Below, one piece after another: positions 309-64,000 of a stretch of 64,000 nucleotides of DNA. The DNA comes from Chrysaora quinquecirrha (taxonomy: Eukaryota; Cnidaria; Scyphozoa; Semaeostomeae; Pelagiidae), in assembly GCA_014526335.1 (NCBI GenBank), contig JACTAT010000006.1:1752738-1816737 (forward strand), given 5' to 3'. Numbering within the stretch: position 1 is the first letter of the stretch; every line of letters starts with the position of its first letter. The position numbers and the translations under genes are program-made. Below the pieces are notes generated by a model. It worked only from the letters and a program-made list of their open reading frames with translations. It did not search any database and was not told where the DNA came from.

Positions 309-1616
309 CTACTACAAGCTGGATTATTCCATTTGATGGTCCCTCACTTTCAACAATGTAGACTCCTTTATCCTTTATTTGCTCAAATCTGTACGTGCAG
401 CCCAGAATATTAGCATAAAGCGGAGCTATTTTATTTTCTTCTCTCTTTGGAAAGTTAACGTGGTTGACTGTAGATTCTCGAAGTCCTATGGAATTTGGAT
501 GCATAAATTGTTTAACGTTGAGATGCGTGGAAAACTTAAAGTTCTGATAGGACCTAAAATCTTAAATGCCAGGGATTTCCGATCCCCAATTCTTACCAAA
601 TGTGGGTGGGGTTCTTTTGGGACCTTTTTCTGCCTATTTAATATCATTTTGTACGGGTATGTACCCAAATGGCACGGGTGCGGGTTGTTTGGCCCAGAAA
701 TTCTCTTTACATTATGGTATGATTTTAACCAAAACACCATAGAAGAGGATGATAAATTGAGAAAACCTAAATAATTTCACTTTGTTTCAGTCTGAATAGT
801 GTTAATATTACTTTGACGATGTTCGCAGTGCAAGTAATGAAAGTCTTGTTGCTCTGGTTTACCGCTGTGTCTACCTTGGGTCTGTAAATTCTCGGCGGAG
901 CATCCCCGTCCGTCCAAAACTCACATACCCCCCTCCGACACTAGGACCGAATTGCAGTCGTTTCATGAGAGATATTGCAGCAAATTTTCTTCAAATTCAC
1001 GTTTATTTGAAGGTAAAGTGAAACAAAGGATTCAAGTCCAAGTTTTTCTGTTCTAGGAGGCATTTTATCAAGTATTTTCTTTTTTGCAAGTTACCTGCAT
1101 CTTGTTTCCTCAGTTTCTACAGATATTGTCCACATTTATAGTCACAGATTCCTTTCCGCTCTTAGTCTTCTATTATTCATGCATTAGAAGTAAAATTTGC
1201 TGCACTACCCCCTCGTAGAGCGGCTGCAATCAAGGCCTTTGCACGTGGAGAGGGTTCCCTTACTCAATATATCTACCATTTTCCAGAAAAATGTCGTGCC
1301 GACCCAGACCTCTTTGAAAAGGTCTATTCCTGGCAAAATCTACCCATCTCCGATTTATTCTGAGTCTACCAACTATGCCGCTTTCAGAATAGGTCCATAG
1401 CAAACACACCCTAAGAACAATAGTAGCTAGATACATCCATTGCCATAAGATGTACGCGATATTGGCTGAATTTTATTTAAAGCTATCCTGTCCAAAACAA
1501 ATCCATACAGAATTATATAGTTTTAAAGTACATACCCACTGTTGCGTTTAGAGCTGCAAAAATCACAAAATTTAAGTTTGTCGAGCCTGGTGGGATCATC
1601 ATTAGTGTTGTTTCAT
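309..1616 (-). CDS. Probable spacer-domain exons (last exons seen in window)
   Basis: Exon 1616-1536 reads [20 protein letters not shown], similar to the start of the ADAMTS spacer (the IPxGAxxIxI pattern). Exon 467-309 is open with good splice sites and matching phase 1 and reads [29 protein letters not shown] do not recognise a specific motif in it, and part of its first 40 bases is also present, inverted, at 2596-2640, so it could belong to a repeat. An alternative donor lies 6 bases upstream. No stop codon or poly(A) signal was identified, so the gene may continue to the left of the window. Confidence 0.5.
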
Positions 1617-4600
1617 CTGAAATGAAAACGTGGTTATGTACTTGTTTAAATGCTTTTGCGTAACTTAAGTTTTTTCAATAAGCCGTCTCGATTGCCTAAT
1701 GCTTTCGAGCTATTGTTTGTCAAACTTTGAATTTTGCTTGTCAAACAGTGTTTGACTGTTTGGCCACATCACTAAACATTTAATGGTTAAACAATTTTTT
1801 GTTTGTGACAAGAAGAAATATTCTAAACACTGCAAAGCCAGTTTGCCTGTCAAGATATGTTTTCTGCAACGAGGGCAGGACCTTAGGCTCTGGCCAAACG
1901 ATCAAACATTGTTGGTCAAAGATCTCAATTTCGTTTGTCAAACAATATTCGACTGTTTGGCCACATCATTAAACATTATTCGTCAAACAGTTTTTTTTGC
2001 GACGCGGCCAGGAGGACCTTAGGCTCTTGCCAAACGATCAAACGTTGGTCAAAGATTTGCCATTTGCTAAATCAAACAAAATGTTTGACCGTTTGGCCAC
2101 ACCACAAAACATCAAAACGTCCAAAATATTTTCTTGATACAAACGTAAAATGTTTTTGAAGTTTTTCAAAAACATTGCTAAGCGATTCTGCTTGTCAAGC
2201 AAAATTCTGTGATTTGTGATGAGGCCAAACGGTCAAACATTGCTTGCTAAGCAAATCTCAAATGTTTGACCAACAATGCTTGATCGTTTAGCTAGGGCTT
2301 TAGCACAACAAGTATTTTTTTATACTATCACATACCTATATCATTTACTGGCACTGTTGCATTGCCTTCTCTCAAAACACAACTTGATCCATCTCCACCA
2401 CAAATCTTGCAATTATCGATTGTTTTGTTGGAGCCAAACTGCAAATCACATCCAAGTTTCTGCGACGAAAATTGAAAGCAGATATGAGATTTTGTGAACT
2501 CCAATTATAGTCCCTGGCTAAATGATGAAACAATGTTAGTAAAACATTCGAGATTTGCTTCACAAGCAATGTTTGACCGTTTCGCCCACAGGACTTCTAC
2601 AGCCAACCACGTAAACTTTCCAAAGAGAGAACATAATCAAAAATTGTTTGACAAACAGCATTGATTAATATTTCGTAACATTTGCTACTGGTAAAAAGCT
2701 AAATTGTTCGACCAGCAATGTTTTTTGACGTGGCCAAATGGGACATTATTTTGTTTGACAATCAAATTTCAGATGTTTGAAAAATGATGTTGGATCGTTT
2801 CGCGGATCTTTTTGTCAGACTCTCGGCCTTATTTTTATAGCACTACGAACATCTTCGACGCGATAATAAAGTGAATTTAGATAAGTAACATGGATAAGAA
2901 TAAAGAAAATTTATTCAGTTTTCTTTAATCCCCCCTTATATAGTGTTTTGGTTAAATTCATACCCATGTTAAAAGAATTTCAGACAACTAGACCAGTGTG
3001 TGGGACATATAACTTTACCTAAAGCACACACCCCCCTCCCATCTAAAGATACGAGAGATTGAAGACAAAAGGTTTCAGAACCTCCTGTTCTTAGCAGACC
3101 TCTGACTAATGATTGTACTATGCCTCTTCTATGAGCGTGGTAATAAAAGAAGCAGAAAACAAGCAACAAGACAAGGAAAAAATTATTTCAAGCATGTCTT
3201 CCCACCTCACACTTTCCATTCAGACATATATCAGTACGATTGTCATCAAAACAACTGAATGTATCTGGTAGAACAGCATCGGTAAACACGGTTTTATTTG
3301 CATCAGTACAAATTATCTCGCATGTTTTATCTGAAAAGAATCAAGAAAAATATGGCAATGAATAAGAAAGTTTCTCAGGAAACATGCTTGTCACGAATCT
3401 TGAAGCTTTCCGAAAGTACATTTGATATAGTGTACCTCAGCTACGGTAGCGTCACGGCCAGGATCGAGGTATCGATTAGTTAACCTATTACTGAGATCCT
3501 AGTGACTGGTGCTAGATGCACCATTTCACCCTTACCTTCATCTCGCAGTTGAAGGCTAAGTCTACGCATTTGTGACATGATAGAGGCATCTGACATCTTG
3601 CAGTCATTTGGGCCAGAAAAAAGGAAACTTTTAGAGTGCCTTATTTTTGGGCCTTTTTCAAGCTATTTTCTGGATCTAATGTGCATTCTTTTTGACAACT
3701 CTCGGAGAAATCAGCGACTTCCACGCTCCAAACTCTCCTGACTCCAGAGCTGGAAGATTTTGCCGGATTTCGCAGAGATACCCACGTTCCCAATCAACTT
3801 CTCTGAAGTCTGTTCGTTTTCAAGAAAGTGTGTTTTTTGGGCCCGAAATCGGAATCCTGCAAAGTCAACTTATTCCAGAATTTAGAAAAGACAAAAGCCC
3901 CAAAAGAACACCCCCTTAGTTGATGCACCTGCAGAGTCCTATAGATAGGGGGTCGTTTGTTTTGGAACCGCATTCATTAGGCTACTGTCCCGCAGAGCAG
4001 ACCTTCAGGAACGGAGCTATTGGGCCAGCTCAGCTTACTTCGAATCGACGAAAAGTGTTTTTTATTACAGTTGCAGCCAAGCCACGCCACAACCTGCAAT
4101 AATTTGGTTTGAAGGGCTAAAATGACGGTCGAAAAAATTTTGCGTTTTTGTGATGTTTGATAATCCTTGGCTAGTACTCACAATGGTGACAATCCTTGGC
4201 TTGGCCTAATTATGGCAATGTTTCTGCGAAAGCCTCAGCGATATATGTAACTATTAAACTAAAGCCAATGTATGAAGGCAAAATTATAAAAAACTTAATT
4301 ATAATGACTATTACCCTTCTTGATTTCACCACTGCATCGCCCAGCATTTACCGCCAAATCATCAACAGCAATGTCACCTTGATAGTGGACGCCACGGACG
4401 CCTTCAATAACAATCTAAAAGAAAAAAGCGATATTTTCATGGTAATGGTGATGATGTTTTTGCCTATAATGCATCTTTTAACCAACTAAAGTGGGCGGGG
4501 GGGGGGCTGACAGGTTCCCGGTACGCCAGTACACGGTAAGGCTAAACATTGACCCGGTACGGTACAAACGCAATCTGGTACATGGTTTTTCAAGGCACAC

Positions 4601-7600
4601 TTGAAAAATCACATTCATAAAATGTGCATGCGAGCAAACTGGTACACCGGTACATTGATCATAGCTGCTTCTATCTCGTGATCAATTAAGATAAGTCCAT
4701 ATAAACAAATTGAACTCACACTAAATGCTTGCTTGCTCGTGACGCTAATATTTGCGAAGAACCATTGATCATCTAAATCTTTCGTTCGCTTCCATAACAA
4801 CACTTCCTCATTCCCAGTCTTTTTATAAACGTTTAATACACCAATATGGCTTCCAAACATGTGATAGAAGAAACCAAAACAGACTTCAGGTGCATTTATT
4901 AAAGGGCTGATCAGCCTCGCTTTGTATCCTGTCAGCCTCTTATCCTTGTCTTGACCATCTGAGGCTTCTATGAACATGTAGTGGCCTAAAAGCAGAATCA
5001 TCTTTAAAGCAACCTAAGGTTTTCTCGTTTGAAACTCTTTAGGCCCTGCCTGGCAAGACAATAAAAACATTGTTGCTCAAACATTTGAAATTTGCTTTAG
5101 AAGCAATGTTTGACGTTTAACCAAGTTGCGAAACATTGCTTTACAAGCAGAACTGCTTAGCCTTAGCAACTTTTTTTAAATACTTTGTACTTCATTAGTT
5201 CTAAGATCCAAATCAGAAAAAGAACTCTTTCTGACTATACAGAATTGATTTACTGGGTTTGATGTGGACAAATTCTGGAAACCCGCTACAGAAACGAAGA
5301 CTTTGCCTATTTTTCGGAACTAATTTACGCGGTAGTTTTGCACAATCTGTGTTGATCAAGTTATTGAGCCAAAGTTTTACTGTTTTATAAATTAGTCTCG
5401 AGCAACCGGCAGAGCAAAGTCAACAATTCATGTAGGGGTGTTTTGAATCTCTTTCAATAGCAAAATAAGTAAGCTAGTCAATCCATTTACCTGTAATATT
5501 GCCAAACGTGTGATCTCTCTCGGCCCAGTCCCATGGCTTGGCGTACTTTCTTTGTGCTTCTGCCAATCAAATTCATCACCATTATCTTGCGTCCAGCTGC
5601 AGTTCTTCACACTGTCAAAAGTGCAATTTAGGCCAACGTTTGATTCAACTGTTGGAAGAAGAATAGATATATAAAAAAACTGCCTAGACAGTTCAAATAC
5701 ACGCTTTTTTTATAAAGAACCACTTTATAAGAAGCCTACATGTAGAAGGCTCGGAAATTTAAAGAACATATACTACTAAAGAGAAAATCATTAAGGAACT
5801 TTTGAATGTTGAATACTTTTATCACTGCAAATAATCAAGAATAAGAAAGCCGGTTCCATTCATTTGCTGTCGAAAATCGCATAAATTGTACGTTAAGCAT
5901 GTATCCAATGTTTCTTTGAGCAGTCTCGAGCTTTGCTCACACGCAAATGTCTCTCTTTTATTGTTAAGACCACTGTATGTGCAGTTAAAATGAAGGAACT
6001 ATTAAGGAACTTTTGGAACTACAATTTCCTCAAAAGAGGCCCAAAAATAAGGAACTTTAAGAACTAGGCCTTGAGGTAGGTTCCTTATAGAAAAAAAGCG
6101 TGTAATATCGAAGAGCTCAATGAAATAGCTTATCCAAGCTCTTCAAGTCACTCAGTTTTACGATATTTTCATTTTCCCCCATGCATGTACCTAAAAGAAT
6201 TTTAGCTACCAACCACAGGACAGGCTTCCCCAGGACGGTATTAGAGTTTCTGTTATGCTAAAGCAATTGGTTTTGTATTTTCAAACCCCCCGTTTATTCC
6301 AACCCCCGTTTATTAACTTTTAACAATATTTCCAACCCCCCGATTATTCCCCCCCCTGATTATACGGTACTTCAGAGTAGTATTAACGACTCCATACACT
6401 CAAATTTGGCAAAAAACTTCTGCTCTATAAAATTGTCCCAAATTTTGGCACAATTGTTGTGGTAAAACTGTCTTCAAAGGGTTTTAAATGAAAAATCAAT
6501 TTTCTCTACCGATACCTGACGGAATGAACGTGCTAGAAATATAAAAACAAGCAGAGTTTGTTATGCTTGTTTTAGCGCAGAAAAATTTCAATAATACTTT
6601 TGTTTTATCGAGGAAAAATCTTTTGGGTAAAGCTAAGTGCACCATTTGTGTTTCAAACACAAAGATTTGTTGCCTTGTAGCTATGCTGGGCTTTACAACT
6701 CCCATATCGACAAATATTTTACCCCCAAGCGCCGCAAACAAATCTCAAACGATTGGAAAGCATTAAATCGTTCGGTATCTAGGGCTGCCTGTTTTGCTTA
6801 TGTTTTAAAACAGCATTCGATTTGCACGCTTTTCTGCGACTACTTTGACAATTTGACAATGAAATCGACACCAGTGGATAAATCACGTGCTTACCAGAGC
6901 CAATCACATCCGCTTCTGTATACCAATGCAAATTCCCTTTCCCAAGAGAGTTGCAATGCTCGTTGCGTTTGTCTTTGACATTTCTTTCGATTTCACACGG
7001 CTGCGAAGAGAAATAGCTTGCTTAGAATTAAATTAGAGAATTCAGTTCTAAACGAAGAGCCAAAATGTGTTCATTAGAATATTTTATCAATATTGCAAGT
7101 TTCTTATACAGTCATTATTACATAACACCGTCTTTGACAAAAGACGGCAACTGCCGTAAAGCAAGAGAAGCAAGGAGAAATAAAAATGGAAGGCACAAAG
7201 GCACCATGCATTTCAACTCAACGAACTGATAAAATTGGCCTATTCGGTAAGTCAACGTTTTGAGTTTTCTTTAATTTTAAATGCTGAAATGCAGTAGTAA
7301 ACGGTGCTTACTTCGCCCTACACGTACAGTAAAGCAATGCGGACGGGAATGTGGTAAATTTGTACGAAAGATTCATGCAGAGCATGCGGCCAGGTTGCTC
7401 AGGCAGCAGGGCGTTGGCGTAGGATGCAAAACGTCGCGAATTGAAGTTCGGCTCTTCAGTCATGCTAGCGAATCGATACGCCCTACTATGGAGGATATGC
7501 ACTACTGTGGTGGCATTTTTTGCATACTGTGTTGGTATTTTTTGCGTACGGTGGCGGATAAACAGTACTGTGATGTGTTATTATGCTTGATGTGGTGGTA

Positions 7601-10600
7601 TTTTTCGCGTATTGTAGTGGATTTTGTGGTGTTTTCTTGCTTGATCTATAGACTTTTGCTATGATTTCGTATCCACTACAGTACGCAAAAAATACCACCA
7701 CATTAGTGCATACCCATTACAGTAGTGCATATAGATCTGCTGGCGTGTTACTGGTCGTATCAATCTGTCTAAAGCTTTCTTCAAAAAAGAACTCCAAAAT
7801 ATAGAAAAACTAAAACATTAGATAATTAAAGCTTTCGATAAAGATCACTCCTATGCTTTCTTTCTTTTAAAATGTCAACAATCAGTCGTATTCCTACCTT
7901 TTCATTGCATATTTTGACATCATCGCCTTCGCCCTCGCAGTCTTCTCCGTCGTATTTAGGACTGCAAAGATAGAAACATACTTAACCAAACGACTTAGCT
8001 AAAGGGCATTAGATGTTACATATATTTGCCATAGCTAGAAAACTATAATATTACCTTGGATTGTTGCATTTTCTGCTCCTGTTCCGAATGCCTATTCCAC
8101 AACTTGCTGAGCATTTGCTCCAAGACTCCCAATTCGACCAGCCCCCATGAATGGGGTAATAATTGAAACGACCATTTGGGAAACATTTTCCCTTGATACA
8201 CCACTGAAATAATAAGGATTGAGAAACAGAGTTAGTGAAAATTGGTGAAACAGTAACATCAACTTGCAAAGTAGATATTTTCTCAAATTTCTAAAAGATG
8301 AAAGAATACTAACGTCTTTTCCGTATTTGCATTGGGTGCCATCTAAAGGTGGAAGGGAGTATCGGAAGCATTCTCTTCTTGACCTTGCCCAATATGGAGC
8401 ACAGTACAAAAATCTGCAATCCCATCTGAAATAAAACTAAAATCAAGGAAAATATCAATAATAAATAGAACGGTTTTAGTAGACTAGCCCTAGAAGAAAA
8501 ACGGTATTAGTAGACTCACCCTATGACATCCTCTGTAGTGACCACCAAGATAGAAGGCACACTGTTCGTCTAAATTATAATGCACCCCAGGCAATTTAGT
8601 CGCAAATTTTGATATGTTTTTCTGCGGACGATCATTTAAACAGGAGACTAGACTTATTACCTGAGTCCCAGTTATCGCTCACCAGACCGAGACTACACCA
8701 AACCGAGATCGCTCAAACTGGCGATTGAGCGTTCAGGCGATTCATTTCAATAGCGATAACTACAACTCAGGTAATAAGTCTAGCACAAGGCGCATGTTCT
8801 TCTGAGGCTCTCTGAAGAGAACTTTCTGAGCTTCGAAAACAGAAAGCTTCCAAAATAGAACCTATTATTTTAAAAAGAAACAGGAATTTGGAAATCCGAG
8901 ACTTTTTCCAAAGCCGGTTCCAAACGAGTCAACTTTCGCGCCAAAATTCTTGTTTGCCTGGTCCCTAGACCCCTTCGTGGGATGTCTCCTTGCAACTGGT
9001 AGAAACGTAGTCTATTTCGAACTTCAAATCGAGAATCTGGAAAGTCTCGGAAACCTTCTGCTTTTGATGACAGAAGAGCTCCAAAATCTACCGTTTTCAG
9101 AAGAATGGGATCGAAAAACATATTCCGAAAAAAATCTGCCGAGAAAGATTTGTCCAACAAGAACACGCCCTCAAGGTCGCAGGAATTTTTCTAAAGGAAC
9201 TATAACTTGCCAAAAGTTAGAAAAGACAGAAAGAATATATTTTCTCTTACGAATGGCCAATTTCGTGTGCTATTACATGAGCATTTTGGAAGCCTCTTTC
9301 CAACACGACTGTACATCCAAGCTGCATATCACACATGCGGTATATTGGTGTGTAACCTAAGAATTGATAGCAAAATGTGAGGAAAATTGTCATATACTAC
9401 AAGATAAACCGGTTTAAACCGGCTTAAAATAAACCAATTTCACAAAGTTTGCGTTCTGATTGGTCAATTCAATAAATCCAATCGATCTGATTGGTGGAAA
9501 TTTAATCCGAGCCTTTAAAAGGACACATGATCTTCCTTACCTGAATAGCCAAATCTTTTTCTAAAAAAAATTAAAACAGCTCAAGATTTGGGCAAAGACA
9601 AGAAAACAAAATTGTTAGGAGATGAAAATCAACTCGAAAATTACAGAGAGTAACTACACTTATCCTTACCTTGTTAAAATAACAGCAAAGTCAAAATGAT
9701 CACTGTTTGCATCAGAATAATAATTCAATGTTGATGCGTAATGACATGCACTTCTCATGGAATTCTTTGGTGCTCCTTTCACAATGTTCAGGTTCGGCTA
9801 AAAACAACAACAAAAAAACAAAATTTAATTCAAAGTACAGCACTTAATAAAACTGCCAATTTATACGGGTGAATTTCGGTAGAACTTGGAATCAAACCTT
9901 ACTGGCAATAAATTCGATGCGACATTAAAGCGGGTAAACTCTGTTTTTATAAGAACCTTGTTTATAAGAAACCCAGTACTGAGATGAATAGCTGTTCGGA
10001 AATTTCAGTACTCGACCAAAAATGATGAGAAACTTGCAGGTCTCAACAATCTATAGAATTAGAATTATAGCATCGAGAAACAAACTTTTGTTACGCGTCA
10101 AGTGTCTATTTTTACAAAAACAGCTCAAGTAAACGTGAATTGTATTGCTTCTTCTATTTGTCAAATGTAGCCAAGTGTCAATTACCTGTTTCAGTACTAA
10201 AAAATTTGATCCCTAAGAAACTGCTAAGAAACTTTCAGTACTGAAATTCTCCAAAACTTAAGAAACTGGGAACTGCCAAAAAAGGGTGTAGCTATAAAGT
10301 CCACTAGAACCAATATTGGACTAGACTTACTGTCTAAATCTTTCCTTACCCGAACACAAAGTCATGCCAGAAATATCATGGCGCTGCGGAGGAGACAGTG
10401 AGAAAAGTGAACGGAGATTTAAATCTCAGTCCACTTTTCTCATCGTAAAACATTCCTCCTTCAATTTTCTCTTTAGTAGTATAAGTTCATAAATTTTGGG
10501 TTATGAATTTGTGTTCGGATCCAAAAACTAAGAAAAAGATTTAGATTAGCTATAAAGTCTAATATTGGACATGATAATTACCGCTTATCGTGACAGACCT

Positions 10601-13600
10601 TTGGATATTTATTAGGGCAACTATATTTATTCCGAAGAAGACCGCTTCCCACCATCAGAGTCTGGTTGAATAACATCAAACTCAATAAATAGAGAAGAAC
10701 CGCATTCTCGTTAACCGACGGAAAGAGACGGATCTCTCCCAAACGTTGCCTCGATAAAAACAAGGCTTGTCGCAATAAGCGGTGACTATACTGTAATGAA
10801 AGGAATAGAAAAACACCACAACACTTACGGGATCCTTTTCCAGAAGTTTGATTCTTGTTACAACGATATGCAGGGTGATTCCAAAAGATTTGTCTTTGAA
10901 AAGTCTGTTTACCTAAATAAGAACGGAAATTATGATACTGTTGGTTTTATCTTATGAATGAAGCTCACTTCATCTATGAGACTGAGTCAATGTAAAACTT
11001 TAACCCTTGTAATCCTGTATTGCTTTGTGGTATGCCATATGTGGAAAAATCGATCCTAGTGTTCGCCATTCGTGACAGATATATACAAATATGTATGGTG
11101 CTGAAGTAGGCTTAACATAGCCGAAACACAAAATGCAAAACGGGAGGAGAGCCTTGGGCTGTATGACTTAGAGAGTTACTCGGCGATTTCATTGAGCTCT
11201 ATAGCTCAGTGGAAACGTCGTGGCTCTCTGGTAATGCAGTCTGATCCGAATCCTATCTATTGTGGTATGCCTCTTGTGGAAAAATCTATCCTAGTGTTCG
11301 CAATTCATGACAAATATATACAAATATGTACGATGCTGAAGTAGGCTTAACATAGCCGAAACACAAACTCAAGCGGGAGGAGCGGGAGAGCCTTGGGCTG
11401 TATGACTTGGAGAGCTACTCGGCGATTTTATTGAGCTCTATAGCTCATTGAAACCTCGTTGGCTCTCTGGTCATGCAGTCCAGGTTCAAATCCCATCTAT
11501 TGCGCTATGCGAATTGTGGAAAAATCTATCCTAGTAGGAAAGATATTTTCACAATTCGCATAGTGTTCGCCATTCATGACAAATATTTACAAATATGTAT
11601 GGTGCTGATTAAAGCTCAGTGAAAGCGTCGTTGGCTCTCTAGTCATGAGTCTAGGTTCGAATATATTCGTATATTCGTTTGTATCTTTTTCGGCTATTTT
11701 TAGGGAGTTAACGGAGAAACCTTATAAAAAGCTAAAATAGGAACTCAATAAAAAAACTCTGGGCTATCTCTAAGTTGAGAAGGATGGACGATCTCTGCTT
11801 TGAGAAAGATGTGACAGACAACAAAAGATCAACAAAATAAGAACTTTCAACCTTAAAACAACAAACTGAAAGGCTTATTTTAGACATAAGAAGGCCATAT
11901 GAAATACATAACGTAGATTATCAGTAAAAGAATCAGTAGCGATAACAAAAGTTTTTCAAAAGGCTTACCGCATTCATAAGCGTCAGTAAATATTTTTCAG
12001 TATTTTTGCCATGCTTCTTAACCACGGTTGAGTCAGCAATGACCATGACTTCAATAAATTTCTCCGGAATTGCAACAGGCTGTGGTTCAATTTTCGTATT
12101 CGCTTGAGAAAAAACAAGTAAGGGTCATTTTATAGGGCCACTATTAGGTCGAGTCGCATTTTAATTTGAACTTTATTCACCCATATAAAGTGACAATTCT
12201 ATTCCGTGCTGCACTTTGAATTAAATGCAGCAGGATTTGCCGAACTAAATTCACCGAGGGGCGTTTCACTCTGCAAAAAGGCGTACGAGACTTCCTATAT
12301 GGTCGCATTTTGGTCGCACTTTGGTCGAATTTAGCTAATCACAATTGATTTGCTGTATGTTTCAGAATGAATGGGCCCTCTTTCCCGATCCTATTCTTGG
12401 AGCCACAACATCCCCGGGTAGGAATACCAAATAAATAAGCAAAAGAGCAACATATAGCTAACAAACGAACACTTACATTGTGCTGTGACGAGGACTTGAA
12501 TCTCAGCATCCAAATGATTATAGTAAACTAAGAATGTAAACTTGTTGTTCAAAAGTAAGCTAATGTGATTATTTCTGTCGTAAGCCAGCCATGTTGTTCC
12601 GACTTTTGATCTGATGATTTTTCGCTCATTTAAACGCAGAGAAAAGTACATGCGACGATAACCGTAATGGTCCATGTAGAAAACCTGGAACAGAATGACA
12701 ATTTCAGAAATCTTTTCTAACTGACTATGGTCCGTCATCTGTTAAAGACCATCCTGGAAATATATAGTCCTTTAGCTGTAAATACCTGAAAAATTGCAAT
12801 TAGAAGCAGAAACATTTCATCTCTTTGTCAAGGACAAAAATGTATGAGAAGCAATGTTTTGTGACCTAGCAAAATCATCAACTAGTCTATTTGTACTAAA
12901 ACGGTCTGCCTTGTCTATATCTACTAAAAACGGTCCATCTAGCTAGTCCGTATATACTTAAACAGTCCGTCTAGCTAGTCTATAATACTAAAAATGGTCT
13001 GCCCTGCTAGTCTTTATTTTCTAAAAACGGTCTGCCTTGCTAGTCTTTATATACTAAAACGGTCTGCCTTGCTAGTCTATATAGACAAAAAACGGTCTGC
13101 ATTGCTAATCTATATACACTAAAACGATCTGCCTTGCTAATCTATACATACTAAAACGGTCTGCCTTGCTAGTCTATATATACTAAAAGGGTCTGCCTTG
13201 CTAGTCTGTATATACTTAAAATGGTTTGCCTTGCTATTCTGTATATACTTAAGCAGTCTGCCTAGTTAGTCTATATGTACTAAAATGTACAATGGATTAA
13301 GTCACCTTCTTGTAACAGTAACTTTTAATATTTCGTTTGATAACACGTTTTTAAATTTTTGACTGATGTTGTTTGATCCCACTATTACCTGTTTCGGTTT
13401 TTTGTCAAGGGCAAGAGCAATGTTTTGTGACGTAGGCAAACAGTCAACATTTTGTTTCACAACAGGTTTTTAAATTTTTGGCTGATATTGTTTGATCCCA
13501 CTATTACCTGCTTCATTTACTTGTCACAGACAAGAGCAATGTTTTGTAAAGTAGGCAAACGGTCAAACAATTTTTTTTACAAGACGTTTAGAAACATTTG

Positions 13601-15062
13601 ACTTATATTTTGATCAATGACAATTCAGCAAAAGCGCTGCTTAGTAACTTCTGGCATATGGTAATTTGGCACATAAGTAAGCACCTCCATCTTTTAAACC
13701 CATTCTTTTGTACCACACTCGGCTCTGAAAAGTTTCCTTGGCTTCATAAGAACATGCTATGGCGTCGTAGTGTAATTCATAGCTTGTGGTGAAAATAACA
13801 CAATGAGGTTGGAGTTCGATCCCTACACCTCATTAAGTTACAACCAGGGTCAAGGTCTCGTTATTTCATTTAGAGGTTCTAGCAACTGGTGCTTAATACA
13901 CAACTTCACCTTTCATCTTCAGCCTTTCATTCCGTATTAAGAGTCTGGGACCGTACGGGAAACAAATAACAAAAAGGCCTACAACATGCTTAAACATTAT
14001 AATAAAATACACCTTAGTTTTCCCTTCCCAAACAGTCGTAAACTAATTAGTGAAGGGTGGAATTCATAGAAAATATTTTTCTTACATTGACTTCCATTCC
14101 AGATTTGTTAATAAATGTAATCGAAGAATATCTCACAGCCCGTCTGCGTCGCACTTTTGCAATATCTGTAAATGAAACCAAAGATAAAAATGATTACACG
14201 ACAAATAATATCGCAATAGCTGAGCAGTGCAAATCACTAAAGCTTTTGAGATGAAGGTTAAACAATGAACGTCATAAGATCACTACCAACATACCTTGAT
14301 CAGATATGGTTCCAGGAGAAGTTTGAAGATCAAACTCATAAGCATCTGCGGCGTAAATTGCTTCATTTTTAATGATATCATTCTGTATAATAAAAATTTA
14401 ATTTAATAAAATTTAATAAAAAGTTTAATGTACAAAATAATAGCTAAGTCTTTACTTTAGGAACATTTGATATATGGGGAGGACATGTGTAACGTACAAT
14501 TTACATGTCAGTTTTTACTGCAAATGAATGGAACCGGCTTCCTTGTTCTTGGTTGTTTGCAGTGATAAGAATATTATTATTATTTAGTTGCATTCTAGCG
14601 ATTTCATCTTTAGTAGTATAAGTTAAAGTTCTTAAAATTTTTCGACCTTTCACATGTAGGCTCCTTATAAAGTTGTTCTTTATAAAAAAAGCGTGTAAAT
14701 TGTAGAATATAGCTATTTAGCTAAAGGAAGTAAAACTTTAGCAACATGCTGTGTTTTAATGAGGAAATTTATTACGATGTTTGAGTTCGGACAATCATTC
14801 AAATATTGTATGTATTGAAGAATTTGCTATCAGAATTTCCAAATCCAAGTTTGTTTTTCGGCAATCTGCATTTCATTAGAGCAACAAGGTCAGAAGAAAA
14901 AAATCAAACATTATTCTGTTGATACATAAAAATAGTTTTAAAAACAGCAGCATTTCTACAAACCTTTTCTGAAAATTTAGAGTCAAATCTTTTCCCATTG
15001 TGCGACGCCACAATCTCATTCAACAGGGGAAAGCAAAACAACATAAACACAAATTTCGCCAT
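309..15062 (-). CDS. Secreted ADAMTS-like metalloprotease with VHL-beta-like and MAM modules (split gene, 3' end may be outside window)
   Basis: I assembled this gene by eye from splice sites and reading phases. Exons on the minus strand: 15062-14964, 14382-14295, 14165-14086, 12684-12477, 12102-11969, 10912-10829, 9797-9670, 9560-9541, 9356-9251, about 8647-8520, 8425-8314, 8203-8055, 7961-7898, possibly 6224-6210, 5648-5491, 4985-4720, 4414-4315, 3330-3206, 2459-2336, 1616-1536, 467-309. About 800 residues are visible. The protein starts with a hydrophobic signal peptide and should be secreted, acting on extracellular matrix as ADAMTS enzymes do. Module order matches ADAMTS (protease, disintegrin-like, TSR, Cys-rich, spacer), except that a VHL-beta-like module replaces most of the usual long prodomain and a MAM domain sits between TSR and Cys-rich. 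Oddities: no exon found for the third zinc ligand, and two frame or phase breaks. It could be an active gene with assembly errors or a decaying one. Confidence 0.8.
468..1535. other. Intron without recognised coding or repeat content
   Basis: This stretch between the last two protease exons holds short ORFs on both strands (for example 486-774 and 1197-1400) with no homology I recognise. Nothing else supported. Confidence 0.4.
1690..2830. repeat. Cluster of CAAACATTG / TTTGGCCACATCA short repeats
   Basis: Many diverged copies of TTTGTCAAACA, CAAACATTGNTGGTCAAA and GACTGTTTGGCCACATCA, in both orientations, lie between the last protease exons; the Cys-rich exon 2459-2336 is embedded in the cluster. 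The same words recur at 5060-5145, 12840-12860, 13410-13580 and 48318-48400, so this is a dispersed inverted-repeat family that has multiplied here. Confidence 0.6.
2336..3330 (-). CDS. Exons encoding the ADAMTS Cys-rich module
   Basis: Exon 3330-3206 reads [18 protein letters not shown] and [16 protein letters not shown]. Exon 2459-2336 reads [36 protein letters not shown]. The string [36 protein letters not shown] is the hallmark of the ADAMTS Cys-rich region and shows that this MAM-containing protein is an ADAMTS relative, not an astacin or meprin. Phases (1 to 0, then 0 to 1) join cleanly. I chose the donor at 2335 (GTATGT) over an earlier GTAAAT at 2348 because only the later one fits the phase of the next exon. 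Confidence 0.85.
2596..2640 (+). repeat. Inverted, degenerate copy of the start of the terminal protease exon
   Basis: Plus-strand bases from TCTACAG through AACTTTCCAAAGAGAGAA match, with a few changes, the minus-strand acceptor and first bases of exon 467-309. It lies in the intron between exons 3206 and 2459, in the opposite orientation to the gene. Confidence 0.6.
3433..3535 (+). mobile_element. SINE tail fragment (CTGGTGCTAGATGCACC family)
   Basis: The segment with GTCACGGCCAGGATCGAGGT and CTGGTGCTAGATGCACCATT matches the 3' part of elements at 13757-13915 and, inverted, 46545-46745, where a tRNA-like head is also present. Here the head is degraded. It sits in an intron of the protease gene. 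Confidence 0.6.
4315..5648 (-). CDS. Exons encoding a MAM domain, with a one-base frame break
   Basis: Three exons make a MAM domain, an extracellular adhesion module of meprins, neuropilins and receptor phosphatases. Exon 5648-5491 reads [37 protein letters not shown]. Exon 4985-4720 reads [46 protein letters not shown], and [10 protein letters not shown]. Exon 4414-4315 reads [20 protein letters not shown] followed by CSG. These cover the whole MAM pattern including the four usual cysteines. In the first exon the frame shifts at the GAGAGAGA run (plus 5514-5521): upstream GTGP is in one frame, downstream DHTFGNITG in another, so one base is missing relative to the family pattern GPxxDHT. 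Exon length 158 should be 159 for its flanking phases, which supports this. Confidence 0.85.
4488..4655 (+). repeat. Dispersed repeat rich in GGTAC (copy 1)
   Basis: The segment includes GGGGCTGACAGGTTC, CCGGTACGGTACAAACGCAA and TGGTACACCGGTAC. The reverse complement of 19350-19513 shows the same order of words (GGGGCTGACAGCT, GGCACGGTACAAACACAATC, GGTACACTGGTACC). The two copies are inverted relative to each other. No coding capacity was seen. Confidence 0.65.
5697..6103 (-). mobile_element. TIR element of about 405 bp (ACGCTTTTTTTATAAGGAACC family), copy 1
   Basis: The ends read ACACGCTTTTTTTATAAAGA and CCTTATAGAAAAAAAGCGTG, an inverted repeat. The body shares its whole length with 15612-16015 in reverse orientation: for example GAACCGGC next to AAATGAATGG, TGCAGTGATAA, AAAGAGAGACATTTGC and TCGAGACT. 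It has no ORF, so it is a non-autonomous transposon (MITE-like). It lies in the intron between the TSR and MAM exons. Confidence 0.85.
6225..7897. other. Intron between TSR and MAM exons; C-rich tract and weak ORFs
   Basis: Around 6285-6365 there is a C-rich tract made of AACCCCCCGTTTATTCC-like units, related to the CCCCTCGAATAAGCC elements at 18.0 and 49.3 kb. ORFs at 6496-6978 on both strands and 7281-7664 show no family resemblance and appear non-coding. Apart from the inverted repeat at 7495-7735, nothing else is supported. Confidence 0.4.
7495..7735. repeat. Imperfect inverted repeat made of GGTGGTATTTTTTGCGTA units
   Basis: Units such as TGGTGGTATTTTTCGCGTA and GTGTTGGTATTTTTTGCGTA run on the left half. 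The right half (7675-7730) carries the complement, CAGTACGCAAAAAATACCAC. The pattern could form a long hairpin, as in a MITE. No coding capacity. Confidence 0.6.
7898..8203 (-). CDS. Exons 12-13: thrombospondin type 1 repeat
   Basis: Exon 12 (8203-8055) finishes the disintegrin-like part with [12 protein letters not shown] and enters a [23 protein letters not shown], then [10 protein letters not shown]. Exon 13 (7961-7898) supplies [20 protein letters not shown]. The layered tryptophans (WxxWxxW), the CSxSCG motif and the CxGxxxxxxxC spacing are diagnostic of the central TSR of ADAMTS proteins, which binds matrix glycosaminoglycans and carries C-mannose and O-fucose in animals. The last cysteine pair should lie just downstream. 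A 15-nt candidate micro-exon at 6224-6210 would read roughly PCPVV if one base were restored and would supply the phase needed by the MAM exon. I regard it as possible, not shown. Confidence 0.85.
8314..8647 (-). CDS. Exons 10-11: disintegrin-like region
   Basis: The minus-strand piece 8647-8520 reads [27 protein letters not shown] and GCHR, matching the ADAMTS segment CLLDxP...LPGxxYxxxxQCxxxFG that ends the protease and begins the disintegrin-like domain. Exon 8425-8314 reads [32 protein letters not shown], the matching second half. The 5' edge of exon 10 is uncertain: the only AG there is the end of an inserted TIR element (8648-8783). The junction between the two exons is off by one base: exon 10 ends in phase 0 at AGG before GTGAGT, whereas exon 11 needs a phase-2 donor. 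One G too many in the GGG run would explain it. Confidence 0.75.
8648..8783. mobile_element. 136-bp MITE with about 32-bp terminal inverted repeats
   Basis: The left end CTAGACTTATTACCTGAGT is perfectly complementary to the right end ACTCAGGTAATAAGTCTAG; including the next 13 bases (CAGTTATCGCT against AGCGATAACT) the TIR is about 32 bp with three mismatches. It has no ORF. It directly abuts the 5' edge of the disintegrin-like exon, and its terminal CTAG forms the apparent splice acceptor on the minus strand. Confidence 0.88.
8784..9250. other. Gap where the catalytic exon was expected
   Basis: I read all minus-strand frames between the HEIGHS exon and the MITE. No GxxHD, no Met-turn and no WSxCS-type motif typical of ADAMTS occurs. 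ORFs at 8870-9166 and 8950-9240 have no resemblance to the family. Confidence 0.5.
9251..12102 (-). CDS. Exons 5-9: reprolysin-type (M12B, ADAMTS) metalloprotease, N-terminal two thirds
   Basis: Exon 5 (12102-11969) encodes [19 protein letters not shown] followed by YLLTLMNA, the first strand and helix typical of ADAMTS catalytic domains. Exon 6 (10912-10829) gives [20 protein letters not shown] and exon 7 (9797-9670) [20 protein letters not shown] and [10 protein letters not shown]. Exon 8 is a 20-nt micro-exon (9560-9541) joining LTR to KRFGYSG. Exon 9 (9356-9251) gives [16 protein letters not shown] and ends in [10 protein letters not shown], which holds the first two zinc histidines and the catalytic glutamate of HExxHxxGxxH. 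All phases agree. The third histidine and the Met-turn methionine should follow in the next exon, but I cannot find them before the disintegrin-like exon near 8647. Confidence 0.82.
11018..11665 (+). mobile_element. Three tandem tRNA-derived SINE units (about 240 bp each)
   Basis: Each unit has TATGCC...TGTGGAAAAATC, a block ending in CTTAACATAGCCGAAACACA, and a tRNA-like head. The head holds an A-box (TATAGCTCAGTGG) and a B-box (GGTTCAAATCC in the middle unit), both internal RNA polymerase III promoter elements. Unit starts are near 11029, 11271 and 11501; the last unit is shortened. A related head lies at 51725-51800, and the AACATAGCCGAAACAC block recurs inverted near 17695. It sits in an intron of the protease gene. 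Confidence 0.75.
12477..15062 (-). CDS. Exons 1-4: signal peptide, furin site and VHL beta-domain-like module
   Basis: Exon 1 begins [20 protein letters not shown], a typical signal peptide. A short linker leads to KVRRRRAV (about residues 66-73), a strong proprotein-convertase site. The next 70 or so residues, across the exon 3/4 junction (14086/12684), resemble the VHL beta domain: ITFINKS (VHL VIFCNRS), RRMYFSL (VHL PQPYPTL), [14 protein letters not shown] (VHL RIHSYRGHLWLFRD) and [12 protein letters not shown] (VHL GLLVNQTELFVP). The spacing Tyr-13-Ser-6-Trp equals human Tyr98-Ser111-Trp117 with no gap. Trp88 is Tyr and His115 is Thr here. No VHL alpha domain (the elongin C-binding part) follows, so a ubiquitin-ligase role is not expected. 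Exon phases 0, 1, 0 and 1 join cleanly with no stop codons. Confidence 0.78.
12887..13285 (+). repeat. Minisatellite, about 34-bp unit, about 12 copies
   Basis: The unit is close to ACGGTCTGCCTTGCTAGTCT followed by ATATATACTAAA. Copies vary by substitutions and small indels, and the first few are the most diverged. It lies in the intron between the two exons that together encode the VHL-like module. Confidence 0.9.
13325..13600 (+). repeat. Tandem repeat of about 120 bp, a little over two copies
   Basis: Two consecutive copies share TTTTTAAATTTTTG, TTGTTTGATCCCACTATTAC, and AAGAGCAATGTTTTGT followed by a GTAGGCAAAC motif; a third begins with ACAAGACGTTTAGAAACA. The unit contains the CAATGTTTTG/GTCAAACA words of the dispersed family seen at 1.7-2.8 kb. 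Confidence 0.75.
13757..13915 (+). mobile_element. tRNA-derived SINE with CTGGTGCTTAATACAC tail
   Basis: The head reads GGCGTCGTAGTGTAATTCAT then GGAGTTCGATCCC, which resembles tRNA A- and B-boxes. The tail (ACCAGGGTCAAGGTCTCG, then CAACTGGTGCTTAATACACA) is shared with the copies at 3433-3535 and 46545-46745. Confidence 0.7.
14485..14703 (+). mobile_element. Partial copy of the ACGCTTTTTTTATAAGGAACC TIR element
   Basis: It shares AACGTACAATTTA, GCAAATGAATGGAACCGGCT, TTTAGTAGTATAAGTT and the terminal TTCTTTATAAAAAAAGCGTG with 15612-16015. The other end is missing. It lies upstream of exon 2, in intron 1 of the protease gene. Confidence 0.75.
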
Positions 15063-17425: not shown

Positions 17426-20400
17426 CTATACAGTATCTTTAGAATACATTACATCTGTTCTCATTGTGTATTTTCTTCCCTTTTTCAACAGAGAGCCCTC
17501 ATGCAGAATAGGATGCTCAAAAATCAAAACCATGCCTAGGAGAAAAGCAAATACTTCTAAATAATTCAAGACAGTTCATTTCTCTTGAAAGAAAATCACT
17601 AGACCCTACCACAATTGGAATCATCCAATGACCCGATTGAATCCTCAAGTAAGTTTTCAAACCATAAAGCCATAAAGCCATTTGACTTTTTGTGTTTCGG
17701 CTATGTTAAGCCGTCTTCAGTGCAACGCATATGCATACCGCCCGGGGGGATACTTGACCCTGAAATGTACAGGTTTGTGCCCTCGAGTTTTTACAAACCA
17801 ACCCACATTTATTAAGGTATTGTTTTACACATTCAGCCACCCAGTTTTATGACTTTTGTCTGAATTTGTGTACCAAACGTTAAGGAAATTTAATTCTATA
17901 CCCATTTTTAAGGTATTTTAGGCATGAATCGGACCCAGTCGTAAGGAATTTTCGAAGAAAATCCACCCGTAAGAGGGGCACATACCTGTCAGCCTACATT
18001 AGGGACTAATCCCCGGGGGCATACCGTAAATCCTCGAAGAAGCTCCACCTTCGAATAAGCCCTCCCCTCGAATAAGCCCCCATGGGGAATTATTCGATGG
18101 ACTTATGAATTTGTTTTTGTCTTTAATGCATCTTTTAACTAATCAAAACACTGAACAAGTTAGCCCTGACAGGTTTCACTATTAATTCAATCAATAATAA
18201 GCCATTGGATGTTGGCAAACAGCTGATTTCGATAACAGAGTACTCTCTGCTATTCTTTCGACAACACACTTGAACCATGGAACTTCAAAATAAGCCCCCC
18301 CCTCGAATAAGCCCACTAATCGAATAAGCCCCCACCGTAAAATTCATTTTTGCAAATAAGCCCTTGAATTGAAAACACCCAGCTTCTTGATTGTTTGCTG
18401 TGACAAAATATTAAAAATTTAAAAGTTCCTTAGCGACTTTTTCTTAAGTAGTAATTTTTTTTAACTTTTTCGACCGTTTACATGTAGGTTCCTTATAAAG
18501 TGGTTCTTTATAAAAAAAGAGTAAAATTATTGGGTTAGAAACTGGACTTGATGATCAGAGACCAAACGATCATTCCACTAACTTAAGAGTCAAAAGAAAT
18601 CGTCAACTAACCCTGACAGCCTAAGGCTTTTCTCCCACCTAGCTATTCGTTCTACCGCTATGTTAAGCCTTCTTTATCGCCATACATATGAAAATATATG
18701 TTTCTTCAACGGCAAACACAAAAGCTAGATTTTTCCACGAGTGACACGCCACAGTTGATACGAATGAAACCCTGGACTGCGTGATCAGAGAGCAAACGAA
18801 AATTCCGCTGAGCTAACAAGCAAAATGAAATCGTTGAGGAACTCTTCAAGTCATATATAGCCCAAGCCCAGCTTATGTCGACCAAGGATATCATAGAACT
18901 AACGCAAACTTTTTATAAACTGCTAACTTGTGTCAACATGGCAACAACCAGCCCAAACTTATAGAATACAGTTGATTGCGGTCGCAAGAGCACTCAGGTT
19001 GACTGCGACTGACTTTTCTGACTGTGCACAATGTAGACATAAGCATCAAGGTTCTCCTCCCATTTTGCTATGTGTTTTTGCTACGTAAAGTCTATGTCGC
19101 AAGACATTTAAAATTTACCTGTTTTAACTTTGACTGCAACATCATTCTTTCTAGATTCATAACTTGAGGGGTCCAGAAATGTTGTACAACCACCCTTGTA
19201 TCCCTGAAATAACAGAAAATAGAAATAGACTAAACATCTATGGAGTACATTTTAGTACAATTTATACTTACAGAGTTGTAGGGGTAACAGCTATAATCCA
19301 TATACAGATGTACTGGTATTTTTGCAGGAGTTTGGGTCAGTATTCAAGCCAATGTAGGTACCAGTGTACCATTTTTCATTCATGCCAATGTTATGGCTTC
19401 GATTTTTCAAATGTACTTTGTTCCAGATTGTGTTTGTACCGTGCCGTACCCTGTTGGTTTTTAACCTGTATTGGGTGCTCTGTACTGGCACGCAGGTAAG
19501 CTGTCAGCCCCCACTTAAGAAGCCCATGAGCCACAGGTTTATTAACAAAAATTCTTTCAAATTATTCAACATGTTAAAGATCATAAGACTTTAGATATTC
19601 TTCCTACCTCATTCAGGTACAAATGAACAGTTATCAAGCTTCGTTCTCCATTCTCTCTTTCATAAGAACCATCCATATGAGGTTTGAAGTACTCTCCAGG
19701 GTCGATCGAAGAAACCGCTGTCTAGAGAAAGAATTGACAGCATTTTTAAAAGACAACAATATTAGAGATACAATAAAAACTCCTACCATCAAATGATAAT
19801 AAGCAAACAGCAAACCTCTCATTAAGCCCAAGAGCTCTGCGATTCTTAAACTCATTCGGAATGTAATCTTTTATTCTCTGCCAAAGCCATTCCGACTTTT
19901 CAAATGAATCCAAAATACAGCGAGAACTATTTCTAACTTTTGTATCTAGAATTTGTCTATGGGAAAAATTAGATATAGACATGGTTAGATAAAGGAAATA
20001 ATTAACAAAGTAACACTTTAGTGTGGGATAATAAATGCACTGATAAAAACATACACCCATATGCACATAGTACCATCCAGAGGGGGGTCTAATGGGTATA
20101 AAGTTTGGGGCCCAGACTCCAAAAAACCTGAAAAAATTCTCTTATTTGCTTCTCCCAAAAATGCACCACAACTTGGTATTATTTCATTACCCTTAGACTC
20201 CCAAGCCAGTGCCTGACCCCGGCTGGCCCCTAATTCACAAATTGTTTGCAGCAGCCCCTACCTTCCACCACCAACATTCAAAAGAGCAACTTCATATCCC
20301 TTTTCCTCTGTAATCCTGATCAATTCATCACATTCCTAAGAAAAACAAGATGTTGCAAGGTTCAAACTCATGACGATGGCACAAGCAAGAATAACACGAC

Positions 20401-20927
20401 ACAACATTAACTGTCCTGCACTGTGGGGTAGTAATCATAGCAGGCACAAAGCTAAGGGGGGACAGGAGATCATTGCCCCCTCTCAAAGAAAATCTTTTAG
20501 CCCTCTTTTCCTGTCCAAAATTCAAAATATTAACACATGTTTTGTTTAAATAAGCATTTTTGCTTTCAATTGAAAGGCCTTTCAGGGACCTTTCAAGACG
20601 TGGTCGTTAAAAATTTTCAGGGACTCCACCCAACCCCTCCCGCGAACCTTATCTATTTCTGTCTGACCCCCCAACTTTTGTTAAAGGACTGCCTTTGTTT
20701 TCCCCGATATTTTACTTTGCGCATGTCCAACTTTTTAGCGCTTGGGGCTTTAAAAACTTAAACCTAATTAACATGACTTAATTTGATTTCAACCGAGTTA
20801 CCTCTTTGGTCAAAACATTCTCCAAAACAAAGGCTAATTGATCATTTCCATCTGGCAATGTTATTGGAATCTTTCTGATACTGTGCCTCTCACCTAATGT
20901 CGACATTGAAGACTCACTTTGTCCCAT
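17426..20927 (-). CDS. 2-oxoglutarate/Fe(II) dioxygenase, prolyl 4-hydroxylase-like
   Basis: There are six minus-strand exons: 20927-20802, 20335-20262, 19956-19816, 19721-19608, 19203-19119, 17535-17426. The protein is about 214 residues with no signal peptide, so probably cytosolic or nuclear. It starts MGQSESSMSTLG. Family signatures in order are ECDELIRITEEKGYEVALLN, VGGG, WLWQRIKDYIP, LGLNER, RFLR, DPGEYFKPHMDGSYE (HxD iron ligands), GERSLITVHLYLNE, GYKGGCTTFLD, FEHPILHEGS (third iron ligand) and GRKYTMRTDVMY (basic residue for 2-oxoglutarate), ending ...SKDTV. The fold hydroxylates prolines using oxygen and 2-oxoglutarate; the substrate is unknown. Exon 4 has a one-base frame break between RFLR and DPGEYF (about 19700-19712): its 114 bases should be 115. 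All other phases agree. It lies on the same strand as, and 2.4 kb upstream of, the protease gene. Confidence 0.88.
18023..18343. mobile_element. TIR element with CCTCGAATAAGCCCCC repeats, copy 1
   Basis: It begins ACCGTAAATCCTCGAA and carries several CCCTCGAATAAGCCC words, ending CCCCCACCGTAAAATTC. The same words and the end ACCGTAAATCCCCGAA occur at 49260-49436. Non-coding. It lies in the last intron of the hydroxylase gene. Confidence 0.65.
18365..18530 (+). mobile_element. Partial copy of the ACGCTTTTTTTATAAGGAACC TIR element
   Basis: It retains TTCTTGATTGTTTGCTGTGA, AAAAGTTCCTTAG and the terminal ACATGTAGGTTCCTTATAAA with AAAAAAAGAGT. The opposite end is missing. Confidence 0.7.
18538..18835 (+). 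repeat. Pair of diverged repeats GGACT...GATCAGAGA.CAAACGA
   Basis: The block at 18538-18605 (ACTGGACTTGATGATCAGAG, AACGATCATTCC) recurs at 18769-18835 (CCTGGACTGCGTGATCAGAG, AACGAAAATTCC). The intervening GCTATGTTAAGCCTTC word is shared with the SINE body near 11.1 and 17.7 kb, so these are probably SINE fragments. Confidence 0.5.
19350..19513 (-). repeat. Dispersed repeat rich in GGTAC (copy 2)
   Basis: Inverted partner of 4488-4655, sharing GTGCCGTACC, GATTGTGTTTGTACCGTGCC and AGCTGTCAGCCCCCACTT on the plus strand. It sits in an intron of the hydroxylase gene. Confidence 0.65.
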
Positions 20928-21235
20928 ATTCGATCTGCAAACTCAGACCAAATTTACAGTAAAAACGTCTCGCTCTGTCAGCTATAATTATAATATATAT
21001 AAGATAAGTAAATGCCTGCCTGTCTCTGCTTTATATTATCCTCAACTATATTTAGAAATGATGAAACAAGTCATTTTGTGTCAACGTTGCAGAAAAAGTT
21101 GTTCCGCATTCCGCATGTTATGTTTATGATCGCAAAGTATTTTCTACCATTTGTTTACAGCCTCTTTTTGGAAAAATTGCGAAACTTTTTTGCAAAGTCA
21201 GCATAGGGTCAGCAAATTTGAAATTCGGCAAATTT
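20928..21235. other. 5' flank of the hydroxylase gene
   Basis: TTTGCAG precedes the chosen ATG by a few bases on the minus strand, so the ATG may open the second exon of a transcript with a non-coding first exon. The ORF at 21012-21206 has no family resemblance. No promoter motif was defined. Confidence 0.35.
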
Positions 21236-22640: not shown

Positions 22641-22896
22641 TACTCTGCTTTCCGATTACACTTTTTAGAAGGCTATTAAAACTGGGGAGGGACAGAATTT
22701 AGTTGCTGCATGTGCAAATATAAATTTGGGATCGTAAATAATATATTTCGTTGAAATAAACAAAATTGTATTAACACATTGATTGCATTTTGGTGGTAGT
22801 TAGATCTTCGACTAAGATTACTTTTCTTAGAGGCTCGATTGTAATATTGCATTAAAAAAAACGACAAACAAAGAAACTATCAAACATTGTTATCGG

Positions 22897-63600: not shown

Positions 63601-64000
63601 AACCCATAAAAGGGCTTCAAGAAAAATCCTCAAAATAGCCCATTTTCGGGCAAAAAGGCAAGGCTATACTATGGAAAAATTTCCATAAATTGGCCAAAAT
63701 CCAAGGTTTCTGAAATTGCCCAAAAAGTCCCTAAATGGCCCTAAAAGGCTATAAAAAGCCCTTAACCTTTTAAGAGACTATTATAAAGCTCCTAAACCCA
63801 TAAAAGGGCCTCAAGAAAAATCCTCAAAATAGCCCATTTTCGGGCAAAAAGGCAAGGCTATACTATGGAAAAATTGCCAAAAATTGGCCAAAATCCAAGG
63901 TTTCCGAAATTGCCAAAAAGTCCTTTAATGGCCCCAGAAGGCTATAAAAAGCCTTTAACTATTTTGAGAGGCTATTATAAAGCTCCTAAACCCATAAAAG
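54690..64000. repeat. Satellite array, about 195-bp monomer (about 48 copies), continues past the window
   Basis: The monomer includes AAAATAGCCCATTTTCGGGC, AAGGCAAGGCTATACTATGG, CCAAAATCCAAGGTTTCCGA, TCCTTTAATGGCCCCAGAAG, TTTGAGAGGCTATTATAAAG and CCTAAACCCATAAAAGGGCC. The first few copies (54690-55300) are clearly diverged, then monomers become uniform, the usual picture at an array edge. Many copies differ by one base in A-runs. Two monomer types alternate: the common CCAGAAGGCT/GAGAGGCTATT type and a CCTAAAAGGCT/AAGAGACTATT type. Short ORFs (57820-58032, 62122-62379) are by-products. Confidence 0.97.

Follow-up and report, generated by a model that had tools for sequence, protein, structure and literature searches.

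The beta domain of the von Hippel-Lindau protein (VHL) is an oxygen-dependent intracellular receptor for hydroxylated HIF, and its appearance in a Chrysaora quinquecirrha gene that resembles a secreted ADAMTS-type protease raises the question of what such a domain might bind outside the cell. One candidate is collagen, which is rich in hydroxyproline, and an earlier note on this DNA had proposed precisely that a VHL-like module recognizes hydroxyproline in extracellular substrates. The gene, here called VA1, lies in a stretch of 64,000 nucleotides of contig JACTAT010000006.1 (the window). It is encoded on the minus strand, begins at position 15062 and seems to extend beyond the left window edge, and the interval from 12477 to 14165 corresponds exactly to its exons 3 and 4. 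Its parts, in the direction of transcription and with the evidence for each in brackets, are the following.

14964..15062, minus strand: exon 1, start codon and hydrophobic signal-like peptide (frame, donor GTTTGT, hydropathy)
14295..14382, minus strand: exon 2, short pro-region (frame, splice borders)
14086..14165, minus strand: exon 3, RRRR site and first VHL beta-domain strand (frame, motif, alignment)
12477..12684, minus strand: exon 4 (208 nt), remaining VHL beta domain (frame, Pfam, predicted fold)
11969..12102, minus strand: exon 5, linker followed by the first part of the M12B (reprolysin) domain (frame, Pfam)
10829..10912, minus strand: exon 6, M12B domain (frame)
9670..9797, minus strand: exon 7, M12B domain (frame)
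9541..9560, minus strand: exon 8 (20 nt), M12B domain (frame)
9251..9356, minus strand: exon 9, M12B domain to HEIGH (zinc histidines 1 and 2), phase 2 (frame)
8643..9250, minus strand: position of the paralogue coding part LGxxHDG...WSKCS (third zinc histidine), not found in VA1
8520..8642, minus strand: disintegrin-like/cysteine-rich exon, start uncertain, acceptor region altered in appearance
8314..8436, minus strand: ADAMTS cysteine-rich exon (Pfam, join)
8057..8203, minus strand: TSP1 repeat (Pfam, join)
4316..5637, minus strand: MAM domain, three exons (Pfam, join)
3206..3328, minus strand: second cysteine-rich exon, covered together with the next exon by the ADAMTS_CR_3 match
310..2459, minus strand: further exons, spacer-like by eye only

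Exons 1 to 9 (15062-9251) form a single open frame of 315 amino acids, with GT after each of them and AG before each of exons 2 to 9, and these clean borders fit a gene in which exons 3 and 4 are continuous with the protease exons. The encoded protein runs from a hydrophobic start through a short pro-region and RRRR to the VHL beta domain (residues about 77 to 157), which exons 3 and 4 encode; about 16 linker residues then lead into an M12B domain up to HEIGH. The N terminus is signal-like as judged by hydropathy only (mean Kyte-Doolittle value of 2.7 across 11 residues). Pfam detected Reprolysin_5 (41.7 bits, E value of 2e-10), and a longer join of 846 amino acids that takes in the downstream exons added ADAMTS_CR_2 (47 bits), TSP_1 (48.6 bits) and ADAMTS_CR_3 (23 bits), all above their cut-offs, as well as MAM; the Pfam spacer model gave no match in this join. 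The gene seems to continue past the left window edge, with a TSP1-like match on the same strand in locus L004. A tandem array with a 32-bp unit and about 12 copies (12882-13285) lies inside the intron between the two VHL exons.

The identity of the module was assessed by profile, alignment and predicted structure. The Pfam VHL model (PF01847) matched residues 75 to 143 of the 316-amino-acid join at 22.9 bits (E value of 8.8e-5, cut-off of 21), although on the 846-amino-acid join the score was 21.0 bits, exactly the cut-off. A VHL profile built without the jellyfish-type members (defined below) gave the VA1 module 43.3 bits, compared to 8.6 bits for the best of 500 shuffles. The gap-free alignment that had been described for a core of some 70 residues holds from human VHL residue 88 to 117. 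In a PDB fold search, the exon 4 model (pLDDT of 88.8) superposed on residues 86 to 154 of VHL at 1.1 to 1.9 Å, the PDB matches shown being VHL, and of 50 rows listed, 48 pair its residues 1 to 69 with VHL 86 to 154 and two are numbered differently; two of the five models for this exon were poor (pLDDT of 58.0 and 51.6). By profile and predicted fold, we regard it as confirmed that exons 3 and 4 encode a true VHL beta domain. That the resemblance reflects chance or a wrong exon join might be argued from the single-sequence search of the PDB set with the VA1 N-terminal join, in which the VHL rows were weak (E values of 0.78 to 2.0) and came behind three unrelated rows. However, the margin of the profile over shuffles, the fold match, the splice sites and frame, and the occurrence of the same join in protein records of other animals rule this out in our view, leaving it a negligible probability.

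Compared to human pVHL, then, VA1 shares the beta sandwich but carries it behind a signal-like start and fused to a metalloprotease-type domain. The M12B domain follows the module after only about 16 residues, which leaves no room before the catalytic domain for the elongin-binding alpha domain; the latter is absent, as the earlier note had stated. Compared to ADAMTS proteins, VA1 shares the M12B, ADAMTS cysteine-rich and TSP1 parts but carries a VHL module in front of the catalytic domain as well as a MAM domain; part of the zinc site was not found in the gene.

This architecture is wider than had been stated, being common to paralogues and other cnidarians. At least three VHL-ADAMTS genes (VA1, VA2 and VA3) are found on one contig. 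VA2 lies at about 762 to 773 kb of contig C467, and VA3 starts at about 1.721 Mb, adjoining VA1, the two being apparently tail to tail. The position of the module in VA2 and VA3 is the same as in VA1; at 208 nt, the VHL exon of VA2 matches exon 4 of VA1 in length and in phases, and that of VA3 measures 220 nt. At least 12 further protein records contain the module (P0009, P0011 to P0016, P0028, P0029, P0030, P0032, and P0033). They come from protein searches, one of which covered 120 of 145 hits and scored only candidates sharing most words, and more members may exist. Among them, P0011 is from Rhopilema esculentum (Scyphozoa) and P0033 from Acropora cervicornis (Anthozoa), extending VHL plus reprolysin to other cnidarians; the EukProt "Seg" record we take to be from Aurelia. 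We refer to P0028, P0030, and P0033 as coral-type. The term jellyfish-type denotes 12 modules that either fall into the clade of the Rhopilema protein or resemble it most. The Pfam VHL match was above the cut-off in VA1, VA2, VA3, P0009, P0011, P0012, P0028, P0030, and P0033, under it in P0029, and unreported in P0013, P0014, P0015, P0016, and P0032.

The Rhopilema protein has the same order as VA1 (RFRR, VHL, M12B, cysteine-rich, TSP1, and MAM), although its zinc motif is complete and its TSP1 and MAM domains are repeated. Neither VHL nor ADAMTS appears in its NCBI name, "MAM and LDL-receptor class A domain-containing protein 2-like." The Acropora protein, named "ADAMTS 2, partial," likewise has VHL between the pro-region and M12B, but differs from VA1 in having two VHL modules, an M12B propeptide and a conserved His115, and in lacking R-x-K/R-R just before the module. 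P0030 is nearly identical to it, with two tandem VHL modules and the M12B propeptide in one ADAMTS protein. A full-length model of P0012 showed the VHL module as a block of seven strands with pLDDT of 88 to 96 (whole-model pTM of 0.54). In full-length fold searches with it, the 50 rows listed per search included metalloproteases (ADAMTS, ADAM, and snake venom), enteropeptidase and MAM, the nearest solved structures among these rows being ADAMTS-1, -4, and -5; VHL was missing from these rows, which the larger domains take up.

Among the matches listed, P0015 came closest to VA1, with conservation values of 72% in the VHL module, 74% in MAM, and 61% in the N-terminal catalytic part. The corresponding values were 31, 59, and 50% for P0011 and 47, 60, and 50% for P0012. 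The VHL module is thus not clearly more conserved than the rest compared to P0015, and both MAM and the catalytic part surpass it in conservation compared to P0011 and P0012. P0015 and P0029 have consecutive gene numbers, and P0029 groups with VA3 in the tree described below, which, together with the closeness of P0015 to VA1, suggests from the names that the neighbor pair VA1/VA3 is conserved.

Twelve of the 15 family sequences have the whole motif HExxHxxGxxHD. Of the other three, P0009 is a record without the catalytic part, P0015 has a gene model that is apparently out of frame there (by eye), and in VA1 only HEIGH was found. In VA3, the zinc site is split by a phase 2 intron just after HETGH, and VA1 exon 9 ends where VA3 splits; in VA2, the site is in one exon. 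Apart from the exon belonging to VA3, the 114 kb of contig surrounding VA1 gave no match to an exon with the third zinc histidine, and for this reason the VA1 protease may be dead. The neighbor described in the earlier note as a matrix protease therefore stands as to its M12B, cysteine-rich and TSP1 parts but is incomplete at the zinc site. One could go further and regard VA1 as a dying gene, in which a transposon-like insertion removed this exon and the rest is kept for now. The failure to match the exon nearby, a 32-nt inverted repeat (91%) in the stretch where it would lie (8648-8679 and 8752-8783), and the altered look of the acceptor region before the following exon would all be consistent with such a decay. 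Yet the other exons read open, exons 1 to 9 have clean splice sites and most downstream exons have splice-like borders. Moreover, the lost exon is of phase 2-2 in VA3 (by eye), so the VA1 frame can stay open without it. We consider decay of the gene possible but rather unlikely.

Whether the module would be part of the mature enzyme depends on the basic site. RRRR directly precedes it in VA1, and R-x-K/R-R was found within 20 residues upstream of the module in 10 of the 15 sequences, while a basic motif between the module and the catalytic domain was found in only 1 of 14 readable sequences (P0013). Given the site's position in these 10, the module may become the mature N terminus beside the catalytic domain, and cleavage would leave it on the enzyme. 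Two of the remaining five sequences (P0015 and P0016) are cut off in this region; the coral-type proteins have the region but no basic site, and they do not fit this simple cleavage picture. In VA1, the RRRR motif is the sole sign of a possible ADAMTS-like furin activation, and the start described in the earlier note agrees with the hydrophobic signal-like N terminus and the RRRR. A different role, as a substitute prodomain that aids folding or latency without a ligand of its own, would suit a module that occupies the place of a prodomain bordering the catalytic domain, and in one query exon 2 of VA1 gave no convincing match to the propeptide-like exon of VA2 (itself resembling the M12B propeptide at 17.8 bits, under the cut-off of 23.7). 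The upstream basic site argues against it, as do the three coral-type proteins, which carry a Pfam propeptide above the cut-off beside VHL and in which the module is an addition and not a replacement. We do not favor this idea and judge it quite improbable.

The proposed recognition of hydroxyproline can be evaluated from the pocket residues. In the human VHL structures reviewed in PMC9528729, Ser111 and His115 make bonds with the hydroxyl of hydroxyproline and Tyr98 makes one with the carbonyl, while Trp88 and Trp117 contribute to the site. According to PMC3688787, Y98H abolishes binding of a hydroxyproline peptide and Trp117 belongs to a core aromatic cluster. By alignment, VA1 has Tyr98, Ser111, and Trp117 in common with the human protein (3 of 5 positions) but Tyr in place of Trp88 and Thr in place of His115, in agreement with the residues listed in the earlier note. 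Across the 17 ADAMTS modules, position 115 is His in five (one in P0028 and two each in P0030 and P0033), Thr in nine, and Ser, Ile, and Ala in one each, meaning that His115 is replaced in all 12 jellyfish-type modules and kept in the other five. Position 111 is Ser or Thr in 15 modules and Val in two, 15 modules have Tyr (six of them) or Phe at position 98, and position 88 is Trp in two, Tyr in 10, Phe in one, and another residue in four, with columns 88 to 98 uncertain for VA3, P0013, P0014, P0016, and P0029 due to insertions or shifts. Trp117 is present in all 17 and is the only pocket residue kept in all 21 alignment rows. Since it is also a core-packing residue, its retention proves little about hydroxyproline binding.

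A tree of the VHL plus catalytic domains was built from 13 members and three outgroup rows, leaving out P0009 and P0015. The 13 VHL-ADAMTS rows were found together on one side of a branch (90/91), in a drawing rooted at the midpoint in which two long outgroup rows meet. The three rows with His115 lay across another branch (96/98) from the eight that carry a Thr/Ser115 label; the unlabelled P0029 (Ala115) and P0032 (Ile115) fall on the Thr/Ser side. From human VHL and the side of the tree taken by the His rows, we infer that His115 is the older state, and it was apparently replaced on one branch.

These data bear on the notion of a hydroxyproline reader, a module that would bind collagens through their hydroxyproline and so direct the protease toward hydroxylated matrix. 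The residues retained in VA1 are in its favor, and so are the five coral-type modules, all of which keep Thr111, His115, and Trp117, and a profile of two of which matches human VHL in the PDB set with an E value of 1.4e-7. On the other hand, the loss of His115 throughout the jellyfish-type modules and the change of Ser111 to Val in two of them weigh against it. The triad Thr111, His115, and Trp117 also occurs in two of three further VHL domains from this genome, so it may mark the fold and not hydroxyproline binding. For the family in general we find this reading improbable. With His115, which holds the hydroxyl together with Ser111, replaced by Thr, the case for hydroxyproline recognition by VA1 is weak, and the proposal made for this gene is not supported; judging from pocket sequences, a hydroxyproline preference is plausible in coral-type members and unlikely in VA1. 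The idea is better posed in the coral-type modules, which have the triad. Its boldest version holds that VHL-ADAMTS fusion gave cnidarians an extracellular hydroxyproline reader. Matrix breakdown would then respond to how far the prolines of collagen are hydroxylated, and through this to oxygen, with the pocket retained in corals and retuned in jellyfish by a single loss of His115. We give this version little credence.

The reading we consider most likely is that of a putative matrix-peptide exosite, and as a whole explanation of the secreted ADAMTS-type family we hold it with slightly better than even confidence. Points against it are the variability of the pocket, the six records in which Pfam VHL was under its cut-off or unreported, the modest conservation of the module relative to the MAM and catalytic parts, and the three coral-type proteins without the basic site. 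VA1 would be a member of a cnidarian family with the VHL beta domain between pro-region and catalytic domain. A furin-like protease would cut the basic site before the module, which would remain attached as the first domain of the mature protein and might act as an exosite holding an extended proline-rich peptide of a matrix protein near the catalytic cleft. The coral-type pocket could prefer hydroxyproline, and the jellyfish-type pocket, VA1 included, would more likely bind plain proline-rich or other extended peptides. With its incomplete catalytic site, the VA1 protein itself would be able to bind without cutting, provided that the absence of the exon does not stem from the assembly or from a haplotype.

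The VHL domain and the ADAMTS protease are each known, but we found no description of their combination in the open-licence literature searched, although PMC12549020, on the Nematostella matrisome, may contain one mention of "von Hippel-Lindau." The VHL domain of these proteins is already in databases, as the precomputed Pfam lists of P0028, P0030, and P0033 show it. Two short peptide patterns of the coral-type module, searched as exact strings in a collection of bacterial and archaeal genomes, which is an insensitive approach, matched 15 stretches, none of them a confirmed relative. That at least one jellyfish and at least one coral have VHL as a module of secreted matrix-type proteases would move the domain outside the cell and near collagen, and the change of His115 on one branch offers a natural control for hydroxyproline reading.

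VHL-type domains were also observed in other loci of this genome. One, in L010 (C113, 5789-6043), scored 41.9 bits with Pfam and keeps Trp88, Thr111, His115, and Trp117. In L011 (C165), two VHL-like beta domains lie about 2 kb apart on the reverse strand (4252-4755 and 6458-6847), probably in one gene, the second having been recognized by eye and then aligned. Within the window, VA1 is adjoined by exons of a 2OG-Fe(II) oxygenase-like gene on the minus strand (19100-20939), with an HMDG stretch; 2OG-FeII_Oxy_3 scored 21.6 bits, under the cut-off of 27, in a join whose junction was guessed, and by eye the frame between two of its exons does not fit in the assembly. Two satellites occupy 22895-40703 (172-bp units, about 100 copies, or a 344-bp period with 51 copies) and 54735-64000 (48 copies of a 194-bp unit, reaching the window edge). 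An open frame of 487 amino acids, acidic and serine rich by eye, is located on the plus strand at 50249-51712.
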